In this document: positions 4,231-17,760 of the stretch, piece after piece
Numbering within the stretch: the first letter of the stretch is position 1
How the letters are laid out: the number at the start of each line of letters is the position of its first letter
From: Akkermansia muciniphila
GTDB taxonomy: Bacteria > Verrucomicrobiota > Verrucomicrobiia > Verrucomicrobiales > Akkermansiaceae
Length of the DNA: 62,005 nucleotides
Direction of reading: 5' to 3'
Assembly: GCA_945888515.1 (NCBI GenBank)
Contig: CAMDAD010000017.1
Location: 1-62,005 of the forward strand
Program-made: the position numbers and the translations under genes
The notes under the pieces: model-generated
What the model was told of the DNA's origin: nothing
The model's input: the letters and a program-made list of their open reading frames with translations, nothing else
The model's database searches: none

Positions 4231-6060
4231 CTACTGGGCAGGAAGTGCTTTTTCCAACTCCTTGAGCGATCCAAAGCGCTGCTTGCCCGGAAGTTTCCAG
4301 AGGTGCTTCGCTTGATCGAGGTGCTTGGAGTAGATGTCGCGTGGCAGGCAGGAGTGCACACGGCAGAGCGCGGCGCTTCGGCCGACGCAGACACCCATCA
4401 TACCGATCGTGTTCATCACGCGGATGGTGCCCAAAGCATCGCGATCCACGCTGATGTTGCGACCGGCCATGAATAGATTCGGCACGTTGCGCGAGTAGAA
4501 GCAGCGGTAGGGAATCGGGTAGCCGATGCGTTTGTCGATGGCGTGGCGGTGGATGGCTTTCGAAATGTAGGGATGTTCCGGATTGCCTTGGATGTATTTT
4601 TTCTCGGGAATATGGAGATCGATGGACCATGTGGTCAGGACACAGCCATCGGGGAAAATGGTTTTGTCCTTTTCGATATTTTTTCCGTCAAGGATGACAT
4701 CGCCGAGCAATTGTTGCGTTTCCCTGGTGCCGCCGACATAAGCGAGCCACGACATTTCGGCATTCGCGTGTTGTTGTGGATCGCGCGCGCTGTGGGCACC
4801 GTAGTTTTTCATGGCACTGAAGGCGCTGTAGGCGGAGATGAGGTTCCAATCGCGTGTGATTTCCAGTTCTTCGATGGGGTGACGGTCATATCCGCTCTCC
4901 CAGAACCATTCTGCATGGCCGCGGCGGGGATGGGGAAAATCTTTTTCTGTGAGAGAAAGCATCCATTTTTGAGGAGGAAAAGCGACGGGTTTTTCGCGGT
5001 TTTCCCACATCCACATGTTGCTCATGCCCATGCGACCCTTATCCTCCATGGTGGAATCTGCCTTGGACCACTGGCCGATGAATCCGTGCCCGGTGCAATC
5101 CGCAAACAGGACGCCGGAGATTTTTTTGTTCTTTCCTTTTTCCACCTCAAGCACATTGACCGCGCTGATGGCGCCATTTTTCATATCGAGTCCGTAGGCG
5201 TGGTGCCCGAGAAACAAGGTGATGTTCTTCTCTGCGCGGACGATGGTCTCTTTTTTCTCGTCTTCAAATTGTTCGGCAGGCGCGGGCGAGGCCTTGGCGT
5301 CATCTTGGAACTCGTTGACGATATCGGAGAGGGCATACTCGCTGGGTGGCGTATCGCCCTTGGCCCAGACGCGAACTTCTGACGAGCCATTGCCGCCTAG
5401 CACCATGCGGTTTTGAATCAATGCCACCTTCGCCCCGAGCCGAGCCGCAGAAATGGCAGCTCCCATGCCGCCGTAGCCACCACCCACCACTACGAGGTCA
5501 TACGTTCCTGCATCTTCGATGGGAGCAGGCGCACCTAACATTTTCCAAGAAGAACGATCTTGTAACAGGCATTTTTCGGGTGGGATGAAAGCATCTTCAT
5601 TGCTGAAAAGAATGGCGTCCACACGACCATCGAAACCAGTCAAGTCCGTGAGTTTCAGCTCTGCTGGGCCTTTTTTCAAATCTACCTTGCCGGCCCTCAC
5701 CCAGGACCAAGCTGTGTTTCCTTGGCCTAAGACAGTGCCGAGATCCTTGCCGTCGACCGAAACCGAAAAAGTGCCCGCGCTATCGTTGCGCTCGAGGCGC
5801 TTGGTCCAGTCGATCGTGCGGACCCAGACCTGATAGTTCCCATCGCTGGGCACGCTGACGGACGTGGTGGCATCGGCCACTGGCTTGCCCATGCCGTGTG
5901 CGATCAAATAAGGTGAGCCCATCGTTTCGATGAACTGCGTGTCTACCATCCAGCCGCCTTTTTGGGAAAATTGTTCTGCTTCCACCAAAAACGAGTCAGC
6001 GTGGGCGATGGAAAATACGGCACATGCCAGAGAGGAAAAAAGAATGGGCTTCATGATCAT
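4231..6060 (-). CDS. Secreted FAD-dependent oxidoreductase (FAD_oxidored family) with N-terminal accessory domain
   Basis: A 609-residue exported flavoprotein. Residues 1-21 are a Sec signal peptide ending in AHA. Residues 22-165 form a beta-rich domain starting FLVEAEQF, like carbohydrate-binding or accessory domains in related PVC proteins. The FAD-binding Rossmann motif VVVGGGYGGMGAAISAARLG begins near residue 191, and the downstream sequence (GGNGSSEVRVW, ADCTGHGFIG, FMAGRNISVDRDALG) fits the PF12831 family. Substrates of this family are largely unknown; complex polysaccharide breakdown is a common suggestion. The start may be Met1 or Met3. A second, shorter member lies at 11100-12362. 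Confidence 0.8.
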   Translation of the reverse strand: MIMKPILFSSLACAVFSIAHADSFLVEAEQFSQKGGWMVDTQFIETMGSPYLIAHGMGKPVADATTSVSVPSDGNYQVWVRTIDWTKRLERNDSAGTFSVSVDGKDLGTVLGQGNTAWSWVRAGKVDLKKGPAELKLTDLTGFDGRVDAILFSNEDAFIPPEKCLLQDRSSWKMLGAPAPIEDAGTYDLVVVGGGYGGMGAAISAARLGAKVALIQNRMVLGGNGSSEVRVWAKGDTPPSEYALSDIVNEFQDDAKASPAPAEQFEDEKKETIVRAEKNITLFLGHHAYGLDMKNGAISAVNVLEVEKGKNKKISGVLFADCTGHGFIGQWSKADSTMEDKGRMGMSNMWMWENREKPVAFPPQKWMLSLTEKDFPHPRRGHAEWFWESGYDRHPIEELEITRDWNLISAYSAFSAMKNYGAHSARDPQQHANAEMSWLAYVGGTRETQQLLGDVILDGKNIEKDKTIFPDGCVLTTWSIDLHIPEKKYIQGNPEHPYISKAIHRHAIDKRIGYPIPYRCFYSRNVPNLFMAGRNISVDRDALGTIRVMNTIGMMGVCVGRSAALCRVHSCLPRDIYSKHLDQAKHLWKLPGKQRFGSLKELEKALPAQ

Positions 6061-6861: not shown

Positions 6862-8310
6862 CTATGCCAAGATGGGCTTCACGATGTGTCCGGCGATGTC
6901 GGTCAGGCGGAAATAGCGACCTTGGAATTTATAGACGAGCTTTTCGTGATCCACTCCCATCAGGTGCAGCATAGTGGCGTGAAGATCGTGCACATGCACC
7001 GCTCCATCGAGGATGTTGTAGCCATACTCATCGGTGAGGCCATGGGAGATGCCTCCCTTGATGCCAGCTCCGGCGAGCCAAATGCTAAAGCAGCGCGGGT
7101 GGTGATCCCTACCGTAGTGATTTCCACTCATTTTCCCTTGGCAATATGCGGTTCGACCGAACTCACCACCCCATACGACTAGTGTGTCATCGAGAAGCCC
7201 GCGACGTTTCAGATCCATCACCAATGCGGCAGAGGCCTGGTCCGTTTGTTTGCATTGTCGCGAAATGCCCCCCACCACATCGCCATGCTGATCCCATCCT
7301 TGATGAAACAACTGCACAAAACGGACATCGCGCTCAATCAGACGACGAGCTAACAAACAATTCGCGGCATAGGTTCCAGGCGTTTTCGAGTCAGGTCCGT
7401 ATAGAGCGAACGTTTCCTCACTCTCATCGGAAAGATCGGTGGCATCCGGCACGCTGGTCTGCATGCGAAACGCCATCTCTGCCTGAGCGATGCGTGCATT
7501 GATTTCCGGATCCAGCTCCTGCGCGGCTTGGTCCATGTTGAGTTTGCCCAAGGCATCGAGCATGCTGCGGCGCACATGCGGCGAGACACCCTCTGGGTTG
7601 GTTAGATAAAGCACCGGCTCTTTGCCAGAACGGAACTGCACTCCCTGATGCTCGCTGGGTAGAAAGCCCGATCCCCACAAACGGGTGTAGAGCGGCTGAT
7701 CGCGACTGGCATTTTTCGATACCAGCACGATGAAGCCTGGGAGATTCTGATTTAAGCTACCGAGACCATACGAAGCCCAGGCTCCCATCGACGGGCGTCC
7801 TGGAATTTGACTGCCAGAGCAGAAAAAGGTGATCGCTGGATCGTGATTGATCGCTTCCGTATGCATGCTGCGGATCACGCAAATCTCATCGGCGATCTTT
7901 TGAGTGTGCGGCAGAATGTCGCTGATAGAGGTGCCGCATTTTCCGCTTCGCGTAAACTTTGCAAACGAGCCGGCCATGGGTAGGAGGCTCTGATTGCCGC
8001 TCATAGTGGAGAGGCGTTGATTGCCGATGACCGACTTCGGCAACGCCTTGCCATGCCCCTCTCGCAGCACGGTTTTGTCATCGAAGGTCTCTAGGTGTGA
8101 TGGCCCGCCCGCCTGAAACAGATAGATCACTCGCTTCACCTTCGCGAAATGATGCGGCGCGCCGAGAATGCCAGCGGTGGATGCGGAGGCTTGTCCCGTT
8201 CCAAACAGTTGAGCCATCGCCATCGCTCCCAGCCCCAGTCCTGTGCTGCCAAGGAAATGTCGCCGCGTCTGCAGCATCAGTTGATCATAGGTGGGGAGTG
8301 GTTGTTTCAT
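6862..8310 (-). CDS. DUF1501 family Tat-exported protein
   Basis: A 482-residue DUF1501 protein, related in fold to sulfatases and phosphatases but of unknown activity. A twin-arginine signal (TRRHFLGSTGLGLGAMAMA) spans about residues 15-35. Family hallmarks follow: FQAGGPSHLETFDDK near residue 66, VIRSMHTEAINHDPA near residue 145, and GEFGRTAYCQG and GNHYGRDHHPRCFS near residues 385-410, whose His and Asp residues resemble metal ligands. In PVC bacteria DUF1501 genes usually sit directly beside a DUF1549/DUF1553 partner; here the only such partner is about 6 kb away (14527-17760), with unrelated genes between. Confidence 0.88.
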   Translation of the reverse strand: MKQPLPTYDQLMLQTRRHFLGSTGLGLGAMAMAQLFGTGQASASTAGILGAPHHFAKVKRVIYLFQAGGPSHLETFDDKTVLREGHGKALPKSVIGNQRLSTMSGNQSLLPMAGSFAKFTRSGKCGTSISDILPHTQKIADEICVIRSMHTEAINHDPAITFFCSGSQIPGRPSMGAWASYGLGSLNQNLPGFIVLVSKNASRDQPLYTRLWGSGFLPSEHQGVQFRSGKEPVLYLTNPEGVSPHVRRSMLDALGKLNMDQAAQELDPEINARIAQAEMAFRMQTSVPDATDLSDESEETFALYGPDSKTPGTYAANCLLARRLIERDVRFVQLFHQGWDQHGDVVGGISRQCKQTDQASAALVMDLKRRGLLDDTLVVWGGEFGRTAYCQGKMSGNHYGRDHHPRCFSIWLAGAGIKGGISHGLTDEYGYNILDGAVHVHDLHATMLHLMGVDHEKLVYKFQGRYFRLTDIAGHIVKPILA

Positions 8311-8578: not shown

Positions 8579-9154
8579 ATGAATATGAAATCACTCGTGT
8601 TACCCACCATTTTGTTCGTCGCCGCGCTGTTGCTGCCTTCGTGCAGTTATCACTATGACAGGGTGACATTCGATCGAGTCGGCAGAATGCCAGCTGGTAA
8701 AAAAACGATTCCGTACATCGCGATTGATACCAACGATACTCTGGGATCATGGGGAGGCGAAGTGAAGAGTATCAAGCCTTACAACGTGTTGGCACTCTAC
8801 GTTGATTACACCTTCCGTATCGCTTCTGCCGAGTTCACGAAGGTAACAGTGACCTATGCTGATGGCTCGGTGGACCCCGGAATCGCAGCGCTCAAGCTGC
8901 CCATGCGCGTTGGCCTCAGTGTCTATGAAGTGCGCAAGCCCACATCCAGCGGCACTGAGGTGGTTGCGGATTCACGAAGATTGGAAGCCCTTTTCCCCGG
9001 TGTCATCACGCGCGACGAACCCTTTTCTTTGTTGATTGAGGGGAAATTCATCAAAGACAATGGCGCGGTGATTCCCTTCAAGATCAAAGAAAAATACCAT
9101 ATTTCACGGGATAAAAGAAAAGAAGGCTGGGTAGAATACCTGAACCACTGCTAA
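8579..9154 (+). CDS. Lipoprotein of unknown function, tandem paralogue 1
   Basis: A 191-residue predicted lipoprotein. A hydrophobic signal ends in the lipobox LLPSC at residues 18-22. The mature protein shares long identical stretches with the next gene: FTKVTVTYADGSVDPG, AALKLPMRV, and VIPFKIKEKYHISRDKR near the C-terminus. It ends in Cys, as does its paralogue. Two copies of exactly equal length separated by 45 nt point to a tandem duplication followed by divergence. I do not recognise the family. The C-terminal half (residues 85-185) looks beta-rich. The 268 bases before it hold no gene, only a short palindrome (TGAAAG, AA, CTTTCA) at 8499-8512. Confidence 0.7.
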   Translation: MNMKSLVLPTILFVAALLLPSCSYHYDRVTFDRVGRMPAGKKTIPYIAIDTNDTLGSWGGEVKSIKPYNVLALYVDYTFRIASAEFTKVTVTYADGSVDPGIAALKLPMRVGLSVYEVRKPTSSGTEVVADSRRLEALFPGVITRDEPFSLLIEGKFIKDNGAVIPFKIKEKYHISRDKRKEGWVEYLNHC

Positions 9155-9199: not shown

Positions 9200-9775
9200 A
9201 TGAAAACGAAGTTCCCCTTTTCCGCATCGGTTTTTTTGTTAACCGCCACCGTCTTGTTGCTGCCTTCGTGCCAGGTGAAATATGACACCGTGACGTTCCA
9301 ATCAGCCGGCTCTATGCCCGCTGTTGCGACACCCATCCCCGATATCGACATCGATACTAACGTGACCGCAGGAATGTTCGGAGGCGCGGTCAAGAGTCAC
9401 AAGCCCTACGATATTCAATCAGGCACCTTTCATGATGCTCTCGATTTCGCTGAGTTCACGAAAGTGATTGTGACGTATGCCGATGGCACCGTGGATCCCG
9501 GATCCGCCGCGCTGAAACTGCCCATGCGCGTGGCACATCGAATTTATGAATCCCCTAACAGCATGGCGGGCGGAGCCGTTGTGGTGACCAAGTCGAGACT
9601 CATCCAAGCGGAATTTCCCCGCGCTGTCAGCCGCGATGAATCCTTCACACTCGAAATGGAGGGCAGCTTCACCAAAGACGACGGCACGGTAATCCCTTTC
9701 AAAATTAAAGAGAAATACAACATATCGCGTGATAAAAGATCGGAATCGTGGGCGGATTTCGTCAGTGGGTGCTAA
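9200..9775 (+). CDS. Lipoprotein of unknown function, tandem paralogue 2
   Basis: A 191-residue predicted lipoprotein and tandem paralogue of the upstream gene. The lipobox is LLPSC at residues 20-24. Conserved blocks shared with its neighbour are the DTN near residue 52, FTKVIVTYADGTVDPG, AALKLPMRV, and VIPFKIKEKYNISRDKR, plus a terminal Cys. The central region (residues 60-85 and 115-135) has diverged most, which may define different binding surfaces. The 45-nt gap suggests co-transcription. No Shine-Dalgarno sequence is apparent before the ATG. Function unknown. Confidence 0.7.
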   Translation: MKTKFPFSASVFLLTATVLLLPSCQVKYDTVTFQSAGSMPAVATPIPDIDIDTNVTAGMFGGAVKSHKPYDIQSGTFHDALDFAEFTKVIVTYADGTVDPGSAALKLPMRVAHRIYESPNSMAGGAVVVTKSRLIQAEFPRAVSRDESFTLEMEGSFTKDDGTVIPFKIKEKYNISRDKRSESWADFVSGC

Positions 9776-9806: not shown

Positions 9807-10151
9807 TCAAAAGAACATCATAGCAAAAAAAGCATAGGCCAGTCCGCCGCAGAATCCGAGTAGAGAGCATACCGCGCCAATCTGATACACGCGGAAATGC
9901 TGTTTCGAGCCCCAGAACCAGCGGAAATGAAAAAACATACCAATGCTCATGTAGGCAACAGCAGAGGCTTGCGCCGCTTCGCCACGGACGGTCATGCCGC
10001 CTCCTCGGCGACCAGGCCAATACGCCACTTGATCCATCCAAGCATGGACCGAAAAATATCCGATCACACAGGGAACCAGGATGCCGAGTAACACCATAGT
10101 GAATCGGCTTCCCGGTGGGGGATAGTCAAAGTTGAACAGATCGAAGGACAT
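9807..10151 (-). CDS. Small multi-pass membrane protein, last gene of the ApbE operon
   Basis: A 114-residue membrane protein I do not recognise. Three hydrophobic segments are visible at about residues 18-36, 62-78 and 90-113, with aromatic clusters (FFHFRWFW) between the last two. The segment between the first two is Gly/Arg-rich (PGRRGGGMTVRG). It starts 26 nt after the DUF2271-like membrane protein on the same strand, so it is probably the fourth gene of the flavin-transferase operon. That context suggests a membrane partner in an exported redox chain, but the sequence itself shows no cofactor motif. Confidence 0.65.
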   Translation of the reverse strand: MSFDLFNFDYPPPGSRFTMVLLGILVPCVIGYFSVHAWMDQVAYWPGRRGGGMTVRGEAAQASAVAYMSIGMFFHFRWFWGSKQHFRVYQIGAVCSLLGFCGGLAYAFFAMMFF

Positions 10152-10177
10152 GGTGAGTTCTTATTCTTTGGAGCGGA

Positions 10178-11107
10178 CTAAAGTCGGCGCTGCAAGGTCA
10201 GTAGGGCGCTATCGATGAGGTCGAGGGCGGTGGTAAAAGTACTATCAACATAGTAGAGGCCCCAGGTTTCTTTGCCGTTTTCATCGTCGGGCTCGCGTTT
10301 GGGGTAGCCGCGTTGGTCTAACAACTGATAGGTGCGCGGCAGGGTGTTGTCGATCTCCACGGAATAGACCAAGGATGCTTGGTTGTCGCCGGGTTGATTG
10401 ATCTCTAAGAACAAACTGTAAGGCGTGGCATCTTCTTTGGATGCGGTGGGGAGGATGTAGTCGGCCGGATCGAAGGAGCCATTGGGCGTGGGCGAGGTGA
10501 CGGCGTCGATGGGATTTTTTTCCGCCTCGGCTTTGGCTTTTTCCCAGCCTGCGTGTTTAAAGTTCCAGTAAGGTGTTTCGTTCGGGTCGGCGGGGGCGAG
10601 CAGGGTCTTGATGTGATAGCCGCCTTGGTTTTCCAGCCAGATGCTGACGATGGGCGGCGGGGTGGCATCATAGGCGGGGCCGGTTTTGACATCGAGCCGC
10701 ATTTTGTAGTCGGGCGAGGGGCTGTAGTGAAAGACCATCTGATCCTGGCGCATGTCGAAGCGTTCCATTGCCGGGCCGAGATTGCCGCTGAGCGAGAGGA
10801 TTTGTTTGATGGGCGCGGGCTGCCACCAGAAAAGAGCGGTGAGTAGGGTCGTGAAGGCGAGCGTGGACCACAAGGTTTTGCTACGCAAATAGCTCGACAG
10901 CGGGCGGCTGTTATTGGTGATGTGGAGGATGATCAGGGCGATGAACACAAAGCCCATCAGGGAGTGCAGGCCGATGATGCCTAACGAAAAAGGCTGGACA
11001 AACGCAAGCACGCCGGTGAGAGCGAGCACGAGAAAGCTCAGGGCGGTGAGCAAAGAAACGCTACGCCTTTTGAGTGTATCGAGCTGGGGATTTTTTTTGT
11101 TAGACAT
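10178..11107 (-). CDS. Membrane protein with exported DUF2271-like domain, ApbE-linked
   Basis: A 309-residue protein with three transmembrane segments at about residues 17-37, 41-63 and 80-96, then an exported C-terminal domain. His48 and His62 in the second helix resemble haem-ligand histidines of DUF4405/PepSY-type membrane proteins. The C-terminal part resembles DUF2271: PPPIVSIWLEN (150-160), an NPIDAVTSPTP segment (198-208) where flavinylated relatives usually have DAVTGAT, and YSLFLEINQPG (230-240). It overlaps the upstream oxidoreductase gene by 8 nt, so the two are translationally coupled. Likely role: membrane electron transfer toward the exported flavoprotein. The domain calls are by eye and need an HMM search. 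Confidence 0.6.
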   Translation of the reverse strand: MSNKKNPQLDTLKRRSVSLLTALSFLVLALTGVLAFVQPFSLGIIGLHSLMGFVFIALIILHITNNSRPLSSYLRSKTLWSTLAFTTLLTALFWWQPAPIKQILSLSGNLGPAMERFDMRQDQMVFHYSPSPDYKMRLDVKTGPAYDATPPPIVSIWLENQGGYHIKTLLAPADPNETPYWNFKHAGWEKAKAEAEKNPIDAVTSPTPNGSFDPADYILPTASKEDATPYSLFLEINQPGDNQASLVYSVEIDNTLPRTYQLLDQRGYPKREPDDENGKETWGLYYVDSTFTTALDLIDSALLTLQRRL

Positions 11108-12362
11108 CGCCTGGGATGATGGCGCCGTGGGTACGGAGGAGATCGTGAATTTCCTTAAGCGGTACTTCGAGTGGGGTGGTGTTTGATTTTACGGCGAGCG
11201 CGGCGGCGGCTCCGGCGGCCTGGCCCATGCCCATGCAGGAGGATTGTACCCGCAGTCCGGAGTTCGCGAGGCGATCACTGCTGACGCTGCGCCCGGCGAC
11301 GATGATATTACGGCTGCCTTTAGGGATGAGGGCGCGCAGGGGCACGGTGGGGATGATGCCAGGCTTGAGCGGCTCGGGCTTGATGCCGTTTTTGGTGTGG
11401 AGGTCGATGGGGTAAAACGCGTAGCAGATGGCGTCGTCGAATTTTTTTCCAGTGCGGTAGTCATTCACGGTGATGAGTGTCTCGCCCTGGATACGATAGG
11501 ATTCGCGGAAGCCGGTTTCGGGTTGCAGGTGCATGAGGCGCTGGCCTTTTTTGCGCAGTTCGGCGAGGATGGATTTGCGGCCTGTAAGGTTGGCGGCGGT
11601 GACGGTACGGGAGTTGGTGGAGTCCGCACCGTGGACGTAGAGTCGATGGATTTGATTGCGCCCAGGCTCGTGCGCCTTGCCCATCATGTAGAGGAAGGAG
11701 CCAGGCTGGCGCTCGTCCTCGCGCAGGCGCGGTAGGCCTAACAGACCGACGACTTCCGCGCCGCCGGTGCAGTCGATGAGTTGCTTGCACAGCACGCGTC
11801 GCTTGGTGCCGAAGCCGATGCAATCGACTTGCCAGCCATGCTCGGTTTTCGTGACTGCTTGAGGAAACTCGTAGTAGGCGATCTGGACACCGGCTTTTTC
11901 GCATTTTTCCTCGGCTAGGATCGCGTAGAGAAACTGATTGATGAAAACCTGGTTATGGAAGTGGCGCTGCGGGACTTTGGAAAAGTCGGGCAAGGAGCCG
12001 CTATCGAGCTCGACACTTTCTTTCACCAACTCCCAACCGATGCCGGCGATGACTTGTTTGCCCCAGGCATCGAAGAGTCCGGGATACGCGACGCCGCCTG
12101 TGGTCATCGTGCCGCCGAGTTGCGCACCGCGCTCGATGAGCAATGTTTTCGCGCCTGCGCGCGCGGCTTGGATCGCGGCGATGTGCCCCGCGGTGCCGCC
12201 ACCGACGACGAGCACGTCGATCTCTTGCGTGATCTCGGGATCAGCGCTCTGGGCAGCGGGCTGCGCGGTGACTTCCGCAGTGGAGGCAATACTCAGCCCC
12301 AGCGTGCCTAAGAGCGAGTGCTGGAGGAAATTTCTGCGGCTGTGTTTTTCCGGCGTGTTCAT
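11100..12362 (-). CDS. Tat-exported FAD-dependent oxidoreductase
   Basis: A 420-residue flavoprotein of the FAD_oxidored type. The N-terminus carries a twin-arginine signal (HSRRNFLQHSLLGTLGLS), so it is probably folded with FAD in the cytoplasm and exported. The FAD motif VLVVGGGTAGHIAAIQAARA lies at about residues 49-68, followed by IERGAQLGGTMTTGGV. The C-terminal IIVAGRSVSSDRLANSGLRV is the second FAD contact. It overlaps the upstream apbE-like gene by 4 nt (ATGA) and the downstream membrane protein by 8 nt. This puts an exported FAD enzyme between a flavin transferase and a candidate flavin- or haem-carrying membrane protein. Its substrate is unknown. Confidence 0.82.
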   Translation of the reverse strand: MNTPEKHSRRNFLQHSLLGTLGLSIASTAEVTAQPAAQSADPEITQEIDVLVVGGGTAGHIAAIQAARAGAKTLLIERGAQLGGTMTTGGVAYPGLFDAWGKQVIAGIGWELVKESVELDSGSLPDFSKVPQRHFHNQVFINQFLYAILAEEKCEKAGVQIAYYEFPQAVTKTEHGWQVDCIGFGTKRRVLCKQLIDCTGGAEVVGLLGLPRLREDERQPGSFLYMMGKAHEPGRNQIHRLYVHGADSTNSRTVTAANLTGRKSILAELRKKGQRLMHLQPETGFRESYRIQGETLITVNDYRTGKKFDDAICYAFYPIDLHTKNGIKPEPLKPGIIPTVPLRALIPKGSRNIIVAGRSVSSDRLANSGLRVQSSCMGMGQAAGAAAALAVKSNTTPLEVPLKEIHDLLRTHGAIIPGDV

Positions 12363-13336
12363 GGTTTGGATGGATGGGAACGTTTTTCCGGTGGCCTATC
12401 TTGCAACACACGAGGTTTTACATCGCGCACACCCGGAAGTTTTTTCAGGGAAGAAATGCCATCGGTGCCGACCACGCAGGCGGCGGTGGCGAGAGGGTCG
12501 CTGCGTTTGCCGTGATCCGCGATGACGGTGACGGCGATGCGGTGCGTCAGGCCGAGGCCAGTGGCGGGATCGAGAATGTGCGAGTAGGTGACGCCTTCGA
12601 TTTTCACTGATTGATGGAGATCGCCGGAGGTAGAAACGGCACAGTTCGCCAGCGTGAGGATTTCATCCGGTTTGGCGGGATCGAAGGTTTGCACGGCGAC
12701 ATTCCAGCCCGCACGGTCGGTCGGTCCATCACCGAGGCGGATATCGCCTCCTGCGGTGATCATCGTGCGGGGAAATCCGGCGGTGATCATGGAGTCGAGC
12801 ATGAGATCGGCGGCGTAGCCTTTTGCGATGCCACCGAGATCGAAGGCCATGTTTTTTTTGAGGAGAGTGATGCTGCGCGTTTGTGGATCGAGCGTGTAAT
12901 GCTGCCAACCGACGGACTCCTGCGCGCGCCGCAGCGTTTCGGCATCGGGCAAACGCATGCTGTCGCGCGTAGTGCGCCACAGTTTGGTTAGCGGGCCGAG
13001 GGTGGGATCGAAGGCGCCGTTTGTCGCTTCCGCCAATGTGCGCGAGTGATCTAACAAGTCGTAGAGCAAGGGTGACAGCGTAATCGGCGAGTGAGGCGTT
13101 TTTTGGCCGAGCTGGGAAAGTTCGCTATCGGGCAGGTAATCCGAGGCGACTTGGTTGACCTCCTCGCCGCGCGCAAAGGCGGCCTTGGCGGCCTTGGCGG
13201 CGGCGGAGCGATCCTCGGCGTAGCACACCACCGAAAAACGAGTGCCCATGAGCGGGCGTTCAAACGTGAACTTTTCCGCTGCTACAACCGCGGTGGACAA
13301 GAGCAGAGAAAGAAATGAAACGCGAATCGGCATCAT
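12359..13336 (-). CDS. apbE: FAD:protein FMN transferase (ApbE family)
   Basis: A 325-residue ApbE protein, which covalently attaches FMN to Ser/Thr of exported redox proteins. Residues 1-20 are a signal peptide. Family motifs in order: RPLMGTRF after the signal, GAFDPTLGPLTKLW in the middle, FDLGGIAKGYAAD, MITAGGDIRLG, and the metal-binding SHILDPATG near the C-terminus. I start at Met-Met at 13336 because it is followed at once by the signal peptide; an upstream start at 13384 would bury it. The gene leads a four-gene operon and overlaps the next gene by 4 nt. The neighbouring membrane protein with a DUF2271-like domain is the likely flavinylation target. Confidence 0.92.
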   Translation of the reverse strand: MMPIRVSFLSLLLSTAVVAAEKFTFERPLMGTRFSVVCYAEDRSAAAKAAKAAFARGEEVNQVASDYLPDSELSQLGQKTPHSPITLSPLLYDLLDHSRTLAEATNGAFDPTLGPLTKLWRTTRDSMRLPDAETLRRAQESVGWQHYTLDPQTRSITLLKKNMAFDLGGIAKGYAADLMLDSMITAGFPRTMITAGGDIRLGDGPTDRAGWNVAVQTFDPAKPDEILTLANCAVSTSGDLHQSVKIEGVTYSHILDPATGLGLTHRIAVTVIADHGKRSDPLATAACVVGTDGISSLKKLPGVRDVKPRVLQDRPPEKRSHPSKP

Positions 13337-13517: not shown

Positions 13518-13886
13518 ATGAGCATTACATACATCACATCCCACAGTCCCTGTCCCCGTCTGCAAGAACTCCCCACGGTCACAGCCACGCAGTTGAAGCA
13601 ATCGACCGCCGATGTGCTCGATCAAGTCAGTGCCGGTAACCCCGTCGCCATCACCCGCCACGACAAAGCCCGCGCCGTCCTCCTTTCCGTGGAGCAATAC
13701 AACGACTTGATCGCTGGGGAAAGCAGCTTGCTTGCCGAACTGAAAACGGAATACCGCACGATGCTGGATGAAATGCAGTCGCCGGAGCAGAAGGAGGCGG
13801 CGATTCGTGCGTTCAACGCCACCTCCGAAGAGCTGGGTGCTGCCGCCGTGAAAGGAGCACAACAACACGATGCGCAAATGCCATGA
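13518..13886 (+). CDS. Phd/YefM-family antitoxin
   Basis: A 122-residue antitoxin. Residues 17-70 match the Phd/YefM DNA-binding fold (LPTVTATQLKQSTADVLDQV, then PVAITRHDKARAVLLSVEQY). The C-terminal 50 residues are charged and helical and should wrap the toxin. It is longer than a typical Phd (about 75-90 residues), leaving a bigger toxin-binding tail. It overlaps the zeta toxin gene by 4 nt (ATGA), and its promoter carries nested palindromes. Phd-type antitoxins usually pair with Doc, PIN or RelE-type toxins, so a zeta partner is unusual. Confidence 0.88.
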   Translation: MSITYITSHSPCPRLQELPTVTATQLKQSTADVLDQVSAGNPVAITRHDKARAVLLSVEQYNDLIAGESSLLAELKTEYRTMLDEMQSPEQKEAAIRAFNATSEELGAAAVKGAQQHDAQMP

Positions 13887-14524
13887 ACCATCCTCCTCAT
13901 CTATATGTGCTGGCCGGAGTCAATGGAGCGGGTAAATCCAGCATCGGCGAAACGATTTTTAGCGCTAAAGGATCCGCAGTTTTCAACCCCGATACCATCG
14001 CACACAAGATCCGCGCTCTGCACCCTGACATCTCCGCTGCGCAAGCCAACGGCCATGCCTGGCAAATGGGCAAGGAATTGTTAGAAGAAGCCAGCGCGCA
14101 GAAACGCGACTACCGTTTCGAGACCACGCTGGGCGGACGAAGCATTGCGCGGTTGTTACAAACAGCCGCGCGCGAGGGTCATCTGCTATACATGTGGTTC
14201 TGCGGATTGGAAAGTCCCGAGCTGCACCTGCGTCGCGTGCGTTCCCGCGTCAGCCGCGGAGGTCACGACATCCCCGAGGAAAAAATCCGCGAGCGCTGGA
14301 ACAGCAGTCGCGAGAATCTCATCCGCCTGCTGCCCTACCTCCACCACCTGCGTCTCTATGACAACTCGATCGAGGCCGATCCCGCCAACGGCGAAGCCCC
14401 CCGTCCGCGACTTCTGTTAGAGTTAAAATCACGCAAAATCACCGCCCCCGCCGATCTCTCGAACGCGCCCGAATGGGCCCAGCCCATCATCGCAGCCGCC
14501 ATTCATCTGCACCGCGCGAGCTGA
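13883..14524 (+). CDS. Zeta-toxin family protein
   Basis: A 213-residue P-loop kinase-like toxin. Walker A is AGVNGAGKSS at about residues 10-19, followed by NPDTIAHKIR (zeta-type substrate and catalytic Asp region) and FETTLGGRS near residue 75. Characterised zeta toxins phosphorylate UDP-N-acetylglucosamine and poison cell-wall synthesis; chromosomal relatives (PezT-like or short AAA forms) may use other substrates. The start overlaps the antitoxin stop by 4 nt. The stop is 2 nt from the end of the convergent DUF1549/DUF1553 gene, so the module is tightly packed. Confidence 0.88.
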   Translation: MNHPPHLYVLAGVNGAGKSSIGETIFSAKGSAVFNPDTIAHKIRALHPDISAAQANGHAWQMGKELLEEASAQKRDYRFETTLGGRSIARLLQTAAREGHLLYMWFCGLESPELHLRRVRSRVSRGGHDIPEEKIRERWNSSRENLIRLLPYLHHLRLYDNSIEADPANGEAPRPRLLLELKSRKITAPADLSNAPEWAQPIIAAAIHLHRAS

Positions 14525-14526
14525 GT

Positions 14527-17500
14527 CTAACGATTCGTGATCACCGCGTCCGAGGTGAGCAGAGTCGAGCAAAGGATGGTGAGTGCCGCGCGATGGGCGT
14601 CCTCGGCCCCGCACACGGACTTGGCGGCGGCAGGGTCTTTTTGATAGATGTCTTTTTGCGCCGCATACAGTTCCTCCATCGCCTGCCGCTCAGCGGGGCG
14701 GGGTGCGCGACTGGTAAGAATCAGAAAGGCGTGCTTCGCTTGAGCGGCGGGGCTTTCCGTTTGCTCTTTGATGCAGCGATCCGCCAGCTTGCGCGCGCAT
14801 TCGAAAAAACTCAAATCGTTGAGGAAAATCAGCGGCTGCAAGGGCGTGTTCGTGCTGAGTCGGCGTGGTTGACAAATTTCCCGACTGCCGGCATCGAGCG
14901 TGACCATCATCGGCGGTGGTGCCGTGCGTTTGATGAAACTGTAGAGACTGCGGCGATAGAGTCCTTCGCCCTTGTCGGGAGTGTAGTCGCCGCCCGAGGC
15001 ACCCGCCTCCGACCACACGCCGGCGGGTTGCCATGGCTTCACGCTGGGGCCGCCGATTTTTTCCACCAGCAACCCGGCAGCATAGAGCGCCTGATCGCGG
15101 ATGGCCTCGCCAGAAAGCCGGTAACTCGGACCGCGGGCAAGCAGGAGATTTTTCGGATCGCGCTCGAGTTTTTCTTTGGTCAGGGCGGAGGATTGCCGGA
15201 AGGTCTGGCTCATGACGATGCGCTTGAGCAGTTTTTTCACATCCCAGCCGGATTCGATGAAATCGCGCGACAGCGTGTCTAACAATTCTTGGTGCGTGGG
15301 CGCATCGCCTTGCAGGCCGAAGTTCTCCTGCGTGGGCACAATGCCATTGCCAAAGCACATCATCCAGAAGCGATTAACGGTGACACGTGAGACTAACGGA
15401 TTTTGCGGATGTGTGGTCCATTTCGCCAGTCCGAGACGGTTTTTCGGCAATGAGGGATCGAAGGCCATGACAGCCGAGGGCGGAGCGGGCTGCACTGGTT
15501 TCGTTAGATCGGGAGAGGCGTAGTCGCCGCGGGTCAGCACATGATACGGGATGGGTGTCTTGGTTTCTTCCATGCACATGATCAGCGGGATGTGCTCAAG
15601 GTATTGATCGTGCAATTGTTGCGTGGCATTCGTCATCGCCAGACGGGCGGCGGCGAGATCGGGATCAACATGGGCGAGGTAGTATTCCCTGACGCGCGCC
15701 TTGGCGCTGACGTCACCTTGTTTGGCTTGTTGGAAAACGGCATCCGCTGGGTGTCCCGCAAGCTCTGCCACTTCCACAGGTGTAAGTGCACGACGGAAGA
15801 TCGAGAGGTCGTCGATTTTTCCTTGGGCAAAGCCGCGGTCATCGCGCGGACGCGCGGCGAGGCGGAAGGTTTGCGCGACGATGTTTTTATCGAGATGATC
15901 ACGCAACACGACGGTTTTTGCCAATTGGCCATCATAGTAGAGCTTGAGGCCGTCGGCGCGCGAGGTGCCATCGTAGGTAACAGTGACCTGCACCCATTTG
16001 CCGACAGGAAATGGTTCGGTCGTTTCGATCGAAACCGCACAGCCTGGCCAGATATGGATGCAGCTCCAGCGCAGCTTACCTTTTTCTAACAGAAGTTCAT
16101 AACCAGATGCATCGGCCGATTGCGAATACATGGCGGGACCGCTGTGCAAAATCACGGCACGTTCTTTGGGCTCGGGGCAATAGAGACGCAGGGAGATGCT
16201 GAGGGCATGGTGTCGCGTGATGCCTTGCAAGCGATCCAACTGCAAGGTCGTGTCACCATCGAACTCTAGCGCCTGTGCGACGGCGCCAGGCACAGCTTGA
16301 TACCCCGCTCCGATCAAGCTAGCCGCGCTCGTGCCCGGAATGCTATTTGCCGTTTTGTTTCCCTCCACGGAGTCGAGAGGATAGTGAGCTGTAGCAGGTG
16401 GAAGTACGAGGCTAGCCGTGGCGGTCAGCCACGAATCGAAGTTAGCATCGCGCGTGCCAAGAAGATCCTGATAGGTTTTGCGCGCGGCATCGAGTGCGGC
16501 CTGGCGCTTGGCTACCTCGGCAGGATGATGTGGCTCCATCAGACGCATCGAAGGCGGCGGCGCGGAGGTGCCGATGGAGTAGGGATAGAGACCTGTTTCA
16601 TCGATTTGCCCGAACATCGATGCCATACTGTAATAATCCGTTTGCGGAATCGGATCGTATTTGTGATCGTGGCACTTTGAGCACTCCATCGTCAGTCCGA
16701 GAAACGCGGTGCCATAGGTGTGCACGCGATCAGAAACATTTTCCATACGGAACTCCTCAGCGATGGAGCCGCCTTCTTCGGTCTGGCGGTGGAGGCGATT
16801 GAACATCGTGGCCAGGCGCTGTTCTTGCGTGGGATTTGGCAATAAATCTCCGGCGATCTGCCAAGTAGCGAATTGATCGAAGGGAAGATTTTCTTGGAAG
16901 GCCTTGATCACCCAGTCGCGCCACGGCCAGACAAAGCAGGCTTTGTCGCTTTGGTAGCCATAGGTGTCGGCAAAGCGTGCCACATCGAGCCAGTCCTGCG
17001 CAAGGCGCTCGCCATAACGCGGCGATGCCAGTAGTGCATCGATGCGTTTTTCGTAAGCATCTGCCGAGGTATCGGCGAGAAAGGCCTGCACTTCAGCGGG
17101 CGATGGCGGTAAGCCGGTGAGTGTGAGGGAAGCGCGACGGAGAAGCGTCGCGGGATCTGCTGGTGGGTTCGGAGCCAGTCCCTTTTCTTCCATTTTGGCA
17201 AGGGTGAAACGATCAATGTCGTCCTTGCTCCATGCTTCGTTTTTCACGAGGGGAGCTTGATGCTTTTGCGGTGCGACGAAGGCCCAGTGCGGCTGGTATT
17301 CTGCACCCTGCTCGATCCAGCGTTCGAGAATCGCACGCTCTTCTTCAGTGAGTGGGCGATTCAGTTTGTGCGGCGGCATGATGTCATCAGGATCGTGACT
17401 ACGCATCCGTGCTACCATTTCGCTACTCTTCCCATCTCCGGGCACGATGGCGCGTTTGCCGCTTTCCAGTTCCATTGTCGCGCCCTCGAAAGTATCGAGA

Positions 17501-17760
17501 CGCAACCCCGCCTCACGCCCTTTGTTTCCGTCGGGTCCGTGACAGCCGAAGCAGCGATCCGATAGAATCGGTCGCACATGGCGGTTGAAGTCGATGGTGT
17601 CAGGCAAGTGATTCACGAGAGCCGTCGATGATGAGGAATGGGTTTCCTTTTCCGCAGTCGCTGTTGCCGCGGGGCGTGAATCGCAGCTAACAAGGCAAAA
17701 CGCAGCGAGAAGCGGAGCGCGCCAATACGTGGAAACGATCAGGGTATTCAGTCGTATCAT
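14527..17760 (-). CDS. DUF1549/DUF1553 cytochrome-type lipoprotein with LamG-like domain
   Basis: A 1,077-residue exported protein of the Planctomycete-cytochrome (PSCyt) family. A lipobox-like LVSC puts the lipid Cys at 26. A c-type haem motif CFGCH is at 70-74 in the PSCyt1 domain. DUF1549 follows (about 175-390) with a second CSKCH at 360-364. About 470-665 is a LamG/concanavalin-like beta domain (HYPLDS start, GKIDDLSIFRRALTPVEV end), inserted before DUF1553 (about 745-1040). The family is thought to work with DUF1501 proteins, probably in polysaccharide breakdown, but its biochemistry is unsettled. The closest DUF1501 gene is at 6862-8310, not adjacent. Confidence 0.88.
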   Translation of the reverse strand: MIRLNTLIVSTYWRAPLLAAFCLVSCDSRPAATATAEKETHSSSSTALVNHLPDTIDFNRHVRPILSDRCFGCHGPDGNKGREAGLRLDTFEGATMELESGKRAIVPGDGKSSEMVARMRSHDPDDIMPPHKLNRPLTEEERAILERWIEQGAEYQPHWAFVAPQKHQAPLVKNEAWSKDDIDRFTLAKMEEKGLAPNPPADPATLLRRASLTLTGLPPSPAEVQAFLADTSADAYEKRIDALLASPRYGERLAQDWLDVARFADTYGYQSDKACFVWPWRDWVIKAFQENLPFDQFATWQIAGDLLPNPTQEQRLATMFNRLHRQTEEGGSIAEEFRMENVSDRVHTYGTAFLGLTMECSKCHDHKYDPIPQTDYYSMASMFGQIDETGLYPYSIGTSAPPPSMRLMEPHHPAEVAKRQAALDAARKTYQDLLGTRDANFDSWLTATASLVLPPATAHYPLDSVEGNKTANSIPGTSAASLIGAGYQAVPGAVAQALEFDGDTTLQLDRLQGITRHHALSISLRLYCPEPKERAVILHSGPAMYSQSADASGYELLLEKGKLRWSCIHIWPGCAVSIETTEPFPVGKWVQVTVTYDGTSRADGLKLYYDGQLAKTVVLRDHLDKNIVAQTFRLAARPRDDRGFAQGKIDDLSIFRRALTPVEVAELAGHPADAVFQQAKQGDVSAKARVREYYLAHVDPDLAAARLAMTNATQQLHDQYLEHIPLIMCMEETKTPIPYHVLTRGDYASPDLTKPVQPAPPSAVMAFDPSLPKNRLGLAKWTTHPQNPLVSRVTVNRFWMMCFGNGIVPTQENFGLQGDAPTHQELLDTLSRDFIESGWDVKKLLKRIVMSQTFRQSSALTKEKLERDPKNLLLARGPSYRLSGEAIRDQALYAAGLLVEKIGGPSVKPWQPAGVWSEAGASGGDYTPDKGEGLYRRSLYSFIKRTAPPPMMVTLDAGSREICQPRRLSTNTPLQPLIFLNDLSFFECARKLADRCIKEQTESPAAQAKHAFLILTSRAPRPAERQAMEELYAAQKDIYQKDPAAAKSVCGAEDAHRAALTILCSTLLTSDAVITNR

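Follow-up and report, generated by a model that had tools for sequence, protein, structure and literature searches.

A putative exported flavin redox module with a variant flavinylation motif in Akkermansia muciniphila

The module and its conserved gene pair

The stretch analysed here (the window) comprises 62,005 nucleotides of Akkermansia muciniphila (GenBank assembly GCA_945888515.1, contig CAMDAD010000017.1, positions 1 to 62,005), from a genome of 3.36 Mb with a completeness of 97.5%. Three genes of a putative exported flavin redox module follow each other on its minus strand. The first (12359-13336) encodes a 325-residue ApbE, a flavin adenine dinucleotide (FAD):protein flavin mononucleotide (FMN) transferase, which matched PF02424 at 1.4e-65 (221.9 bits, cut-off 25.6) and whose N-terminus appears by eye to be of the Sec type. 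The second (11100-12362) encodes a 420-residue FAD_oxidored flavoenzyme (PF12831, 3.6e-74; 251 bits, cut-off 27) of the twin-arginine translocation (Tat) exported type, with the sequence SRRNFL near its N-terminus. The third (10178-11107) encodes a 309-residue membrane protein, with helices resembling half of DUF4405 in its N-terminal part and a DUF2271-like exported domain in its C-terminal part. ApbE and FAD_oxidored overlap by 4 nt, FAD_oxidored and the membrane protein by 8 nt, and a 26-nt gap leads to a small open reading frame (ORF). Pfam matches and coordinates agreed with the original prediction for the three genes and both overlaps, and its view of an exported flavin module joining a DUF4405/DUF2271-type membrane protein to a Tat FAD enzyme was supported. 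Promoter and terminator scans of the locus gave a signal no higher than shuffled sequences.

Homologues of the membrane protein were aligned in 43 rows: the window, 30 from loci L035-L065 (L060 excluded) and 12 from among the 15 stretches L139-L153. L033 and L034, which are identical loci to L038 and L039, were dropped, as were L147 and L153, which lacked a usable open frame, and L152 (broken frame, partial). Removing rows more than 80% identical left a non-redundant subset of 29. L060 (G103:C12), close to a contig end, has a fragment of a further copy of the gene, with two in-frame stops; it was left out of the motif and neighbourhood counts.

A FAD_oxidored gene adjoins the membrane protein gene on the same strand in 38 of the 43 loci. 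By match ends, it lies at most 400 bp upstream in 32 of these; the apparent gap in another four (L139-L142) is filled by a longer C-terminus of the FAD enzyme, L047 has a sulfatase between the two genes, and in L143 the FAD_oxidored gene lies downstream. Locus L046, where no FAD_oxidored gene adjoins, is cut by a contig end. A twin-arginine (RR) motif was present in 29 of 30 complete N-termini of the adjacent FAD_oxidored homologues, window included, the exception being L143; the N-termini of L045, L048, L056 and L065 are outside this count.

The same association was seen at genome level in 116 genomes of the order, the window's own genome being counted among the carriers. The membrane protein was found in 26 genomes. 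FAD_oxidored, sought at E<=1e-60 among the 15 best candidates of each genome, was found in 22, every one of which also carries the membrane protein; no FAD_oxidored was detected at this threshold among the best 15 candidates of each of the 90 genomes without the membrane protein. In one genome (G088) the two genes are on different contigs. The FAD_oxidored/membrane-protein pair is thus the conserved unit, with linkage beyond chance. Its distribution is patchy, since an even sample of 387 genomes from the phylum contained 15 with the membrane protein, including four that were already known.

The closest named relatives of the membrane protein came from metagenome-assembled genomes titled Verrucomicrobiae bacterium (93% identity), Akkermansia muciniphila (86%) and Prosthecobacter debontii (78%). 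A further pair of records, titled Thioalkalivibrio and Planctomycetaceae, were 67-68% identical to it and almost identical to one another; these may be misbinned.

Two further observations concern FAD_oxidored genes. At L142:7564-10880 the gene is present as a tandem duplicate, upstream of the gene for the membrane protein. The window encodes a further FAD_oxidored protein (4231-6060, minus strand), which does not adjoin a DUF2271 protein and has an N-terminal Golvesin_C match slightly under its cut-off.

The small ORF (9807-10151, 114 residues) had been proposed as the fourth member of the operon. No Pfam-type family was found for it. Homologues were present in 25 of the 116 genomes, its own included; only three of the 25 other membrane-protein carriers (G028, G042 and G088) had one, at distant places in the genome, and a tblastn search of L033-L065 gave no match at E<=1e-3. 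The ORF was beside the module in none of those 25 carriers and was rejected as a module member; it is a passenger or neighbour. The proposed operon therefore stands for its first three genes, their overlaps and the 26-nt gap, and loses its fourth gene.

The membrane protein and its flavinylation motif

Profile searches, which the original prediction had proposed as a check, matched both expected families, each below the Pfam gathering score. Residues 152-209 matched DUF2271 (PF10029) at 1.6e-4 (21.9 bits, gathering 27.3; profile positions 19-73 of 136), and residues 17-64 matched DUF4405 (PF14358) at 2.1e-4 (22.2 bits, gathering 26.7). When four homologues were scanned for DUF4405, L149 scored above gathering (28.6 bits) and L140, L148 and L057 below it. 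An hhalign comparison with the DUF2271 proteins of the order brought the motif columns into alignment and gave 94.5% (E 7.8e-8). Judged from these profiles, the similarity to both families is real, though the window protein itself is sub-threshold. A sequence search of the PDB with the membrane protein gave nothing at E<=1, and the PepSY membrane families PF03929 and PF16357 had no match in the window at E<=1.

Hydropathy showed two strong peaks in the membrane protein. A third helix (residues 77-94) appeared in an AlphaFold2 model and is weakly hydrophobic, so that the three transmembrane segments of the original prediction comprise two clear ones and one that comes from a low-confidence model. 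The models made for the membrane protein and for the FAD enzyme (each from six sequences) had predicted local distance difference test (pLDDT) values of 36.5 and 38.0, and only helix positions were taken from them. Positively charged residues at 13-15 and 68-77 point to an inside location for the N-terminus and for the loop that follows helix 2; with three helices, the DUF2271 domain would then be outside, on the same side as the exported ApbE and the Tat substrate.

Helix 2 contains two histidines, His48 (codon 10964-10966, minus strand) and His62 (10922-10924, minus strand), which are invariant in all 43 rows and in all 29 non-redundant rows and are predicted heme ligands. They are 14 residues apart, as in cytochrome b helices that bind two hemes. 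For DUF4405 proteins, each chain is described as having six helices and four histidines (PMC11334425), whereas the module protein has two hydropathy peaks with a weak third helix and two conserved histidines. With fewer helices and two histidines per chain, it would have to form a dimer, like FezC, a DUF4405-like protein with cytochrome-like properties whose heme sites were modelled by homodimerisation (mSystems 2024, PMC11334425). By this analogy, the half-domain similarity and the two invariant histidines suggest a FezC-like dimeric b-type cytochrome.

The flavinylation motif of the DUF2271-like domain was confirmed to read DAVTSPT, where DAVTGAT is usual, at residues 201-207 (codons 10507-10487, minus strand), with Thr207 at 10487-10489. 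Its last four residues, TSPT, depart from the canonical [S/T]GA[S/T]. Thr207 was conserved in 43/43 rows and 29/29 non-redundant rows, and Asp201 in 38/43 and 27/29, being replaced by Leu in L139-L143. The positions between them vary: Ser (37) or Thr (6) at position 204; Ser (17), Gly (15), Ala (5), Gln (3) or Thr (3) at 205; and Pro (23), Ala (17), Asp (1), Ser (1) or Thr (1) at 206. The canonical spelling SGAT occurred in nine rows, namely all eight of family f44 (L139-L143 and L149-L151) and L055. All 12 rows with a linked ApbE were non-GA (TSPT 4, SSPT 4, SSAT 3, TGST 1).

The altered motif is not confined to this operon. Eleven standard DUF2271 proteins scored above the Pfam cut-off among the 116 genomes, with motifs SGPT (6), SSPT (2), SGPS (1), TGAT (1) and TSAT (1). 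An ApbE match lay within the fetched 3.4 kb of five of the nine reading SGPT, SSPT or SGPS (L096, L097, L100, L103 and L106), and L096 also has a PepSY_TM_like_2 neighbour (PF16357, 3.4e-76). Because nine of the eleven share these spellings and the motif columns align, the spelling is, on alignment evidence, an order-wide drift of the DUF2271 motif with the acceptor kept. As to whether the motif had changed or the site had been lost, the invariant Thr207 favours a relaxed motif over loss.

Published mutants bear on this tolerance. Replacing Gly with Ala, or Ala with Val, left about 50% of flavinylation in each case, and Thr to Ala left none (PMC12052999). The two papers disagree on the Asp, which is described as essential in PMC10722498 and had little effect when changed to Ala in PMC12052999. 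As a separate observation, L104:328-1950 and L105 encode ApbE and DUF2271 in single chains, with motifs TGAT and TSAT, so that transferase and substrate are in one protein.

Distribution of ApbE and a second flavinylation system

The closest solved relative of the window ApbE was 6nxi (1.7e-34), whose alignment includes the TSGD, YSHILDPATG and SDPLATA segments; a His/Ser/Asp active-site triad is named for ApbE in PMC12052999. An ApbE gene is linked to the membrane protein gene in 12 of the 43 loci, upstream in eight (the window clade) and downstream in four, the downstream ApbEs being 22-31% identical to that of the window. In four loci (L036, L037, L046 and L055) the sequence stops so soon upstream that a linked ApbE may have been missed. 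With few ApbE genes in multi-megabase genomes, we estimate chance linkage at about 1% or less per locus; the association is therefore real though not general, and "ApbE-led" does not describe these loci as a group.

The possibility that carriers without linkage lack ApbE altogether was rejected, since ApbE was found somewhere in 26/26 and 9/9 of the carrier genomes searched; carriers G124 and G251 and the genomes of L035-L037 lie outside that search. In a neighbourhood survey of the kind the original prediction had proposed, the pair occurs without linked ApbE in most relatives, a pattern that the original prediction had named as grounds for its refutation and that, for gene linkage, formally counts as such; ApbE was still present in all 35 carriers searched. 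ApbE could act in trans where unlinked, judging from these genomes. The unlinked ApbEs of such carriers were 24-55% identical to the window ApbE, in a comparison by identity that covered part of the copies.

The genome of the window carries a second ApbE at L066:7789-8595 (G000:C36; 2.2e-50), within a system spanning L066:7789-10263. Its neighbour is a 549-residue membrane protein that has FMN_bind and Fer4_5 stretches, two of each, as well as two VSGAS sites of canonical spelling, and that we take to be NosR/NapH-like. This system shares with the module an ApbE that adjoins a membrane protein containing flavin-carrying domains; unlike the module, it has the canonical motif, the FMN_bind fold and an iron-sulfur domain (Fer4_5). 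By sequence, one cell has two putative ApbE-substrate pairs of different motif spelling.

Predicted electron route, alternatives and neighbouring genes

Flavinylation of DUF2271 and heme binding by DUF4405/FezC proteins are described in PMC8238504 and PMC11334425. The nearest described systems are the PepSY-like clusters, which consist of PepSY-like, DUF2271, DUF4198 and ApbE genes (eLife 2021, PMC8238504). Like the module, these combine ApbE, a DUF2271 carrier and a small membrane protein, and within the same order their DUF2271 proteins read SGPT or SSPT. They differ in having DUF2271 and the membrane protein as separate genes, whereas the module has both in one chain, with a DUF4405-like membrane part and a FAD_oxidored partner. 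The consulted description of DUF4405/FezC (PMC11334425) mentions neither a DUF2271 domain nor a FAD_oxidored partner, both of which the module has. No description of the FAD_oxidored/membrane-protein pair was found in the titles and opening abstract lines of the papers listed. The terms "FAD_oxidored" and "PF12831" are absent from the main text of PMC8238504, and "Verrucomicrob" from the main texts of PMC8238504 and PMC11334425; the supplementary tables may list such loci. The module is real and conserved, and is best classed as a variant of extracytosolic electron transfer linked to flavinylation. It would work like the DUF2271/DUF4405 systems without being a plain member of them, given its departure from the strict motif, its sub-threshold scores and its helix number.

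We consider it somewhat probable that the two-gene core passes electrons from the periplasm to the quinone pool. The Tat-exported FAD enzyme would have the membrane protein as its electron partner, the latter probably with three helices, its N-terminus inside, the invariant histidine pair in helix 2 and the DUF2271 domain in the periplasm. Dimerisation, as reported for FezC, would allow it to hold b-type hemes. ApbE, alongside in the window and in trans elsewhere, would attach FMN to Thr207, the predicted acceptor in a relaxed motif that usually reads D-x-[VIL]-[ST]-x-[PA]-T. Electrons would then move from the FADH2 of the enzyme to FMN-Thr207, to heme b and to quinone, so that the enzyme would be a dehydrogenase of the periplasm coupled to respiration. 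Its substrate is perhaps a sugar, as sulfatases adjoin in some lineages: a sulfatase gene is next to the membrane protein gene on the same strand in L046, L047, L139, L140 and L141 and next to FAD_oxidored in L049 and L053, in total 7 of the 43 loci (Pfam-checked in L047, L139 and L140, by similarity in the others). Counted without an abundance control, these neighbours are a hint of polysaccharide use.

Several observations weigh against this route. No FAD_oxidored gene was found in the fetched stretch of four loci (L050 and L144-L146), and the AlphaFold models showed neither a heme site nor a flavin pocket. ApbE is unlinked in 31 of the 43 loci and, occurring in 105 of the 116 genomes, is near-universal in the order, so that its presence in all searched carriers is weak evidence. 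Non-GA spellings were found also in 22 of the 31 rows without linked ApbE, and therefore nothing ties the spelling to a dedicated transferase. The five SGAT rows of L139-L143 have Leu at Asp201, where the published motif has a strictly conserved Asp, and the consulted portions of PMC12052999 and PMC10722498 report neither a Pro before the acceptor nor a Ser at the Gly position. The direction of electron flow given here is inferred.

The same relay could run in reverse, from quinol through the hemes and FMN-Thr207 to a FAD enzyme acting as a periplasmic reductase, which we judge somewhat unlikely. The characterised flavinylation systems run outward from a cytosolic donor, with reversal possible (PMC8238504), and the solved chains that weakly match the FAD enzyme include flavocytochrome c fumarate reductases. 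The matches to solved chains, however, cover only the start of the enzyme (60 of 66 PDB matches listed), the dinucleotide-binding part common to many FAD enzymes, and therefore no substrate can be named from them; the sulfatase neighbours hint at catabolism. Genomes of this kind are known to be sulfatase-rich, and the adjacency could be chance. For this reason, and because the remaining 36 loci, those of the window clade among them, have no adjoining sulfatase, we find it highly improbable that the seven adjoining sulfatases mark a role of the FAD enzyme and relay in the partner or maturation chemistry of sulfatases instead of substrate catabolism.

A dead site, with Thr207 kept for folding, no covalent flavin on DUF2271 and the linked ApbE serving another substrate, would agree with the replacement of the canonical GA and with the many loci where ApbE is unlinked. 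It is unlikely in view of the retention of the last Thr and, in 38 of 43 rows, of the Asp while the middle drifts. The same drift is seen in DUF2271 proteins of the published PepSY type that are linked to ApbE, and ApbE is linked upstream or downstream depending on the lineage.

If the dehydrogenase route holds, a function would be provided for a group of Tat-exported FAD_oxidored enzymes in Verrucomicrobiota whose role has none assigned, a one-chain cytochrome-flavin relay would join the list of flavinylation systems, and searches with [S/T]GA[S/T] would miss genuine ApbE substrates across a whole order. More tentatively, it is possible that the module is an undescribed respiratory entry in which Tat FAD_oxidored dehydrogenases feed a one-chain flavin-heme relay, with an ApbE lineage adapted to [ST]SPT beside a canonical ApbE/SGAS pair.

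Other genes surround the module in the window. DUF1501 and PSCyt1-PSCyt2-PSD1 genes lie at 6862-8310 and 14527-17760 (minus strand); their homologues are neighbours in L053, L057, L058, L062 and L151, and in the window they are separated by 6 kb that include the flavin module. Two lipoprotein-like genes at 8579-9154 and 9200-9775 (plus strand), grouped by similarity, form a tandem duplication, and a Pfam scan of the first gave no match. Divergent from the ApbE gene are two plus-strand ORFs (13518-14524) that overlap by 4 nt; the first is antitoxin-like by eye and the second has a Zeta_toxin match (6.3e-9), so that they resemble a toxin-antitoxin pair.

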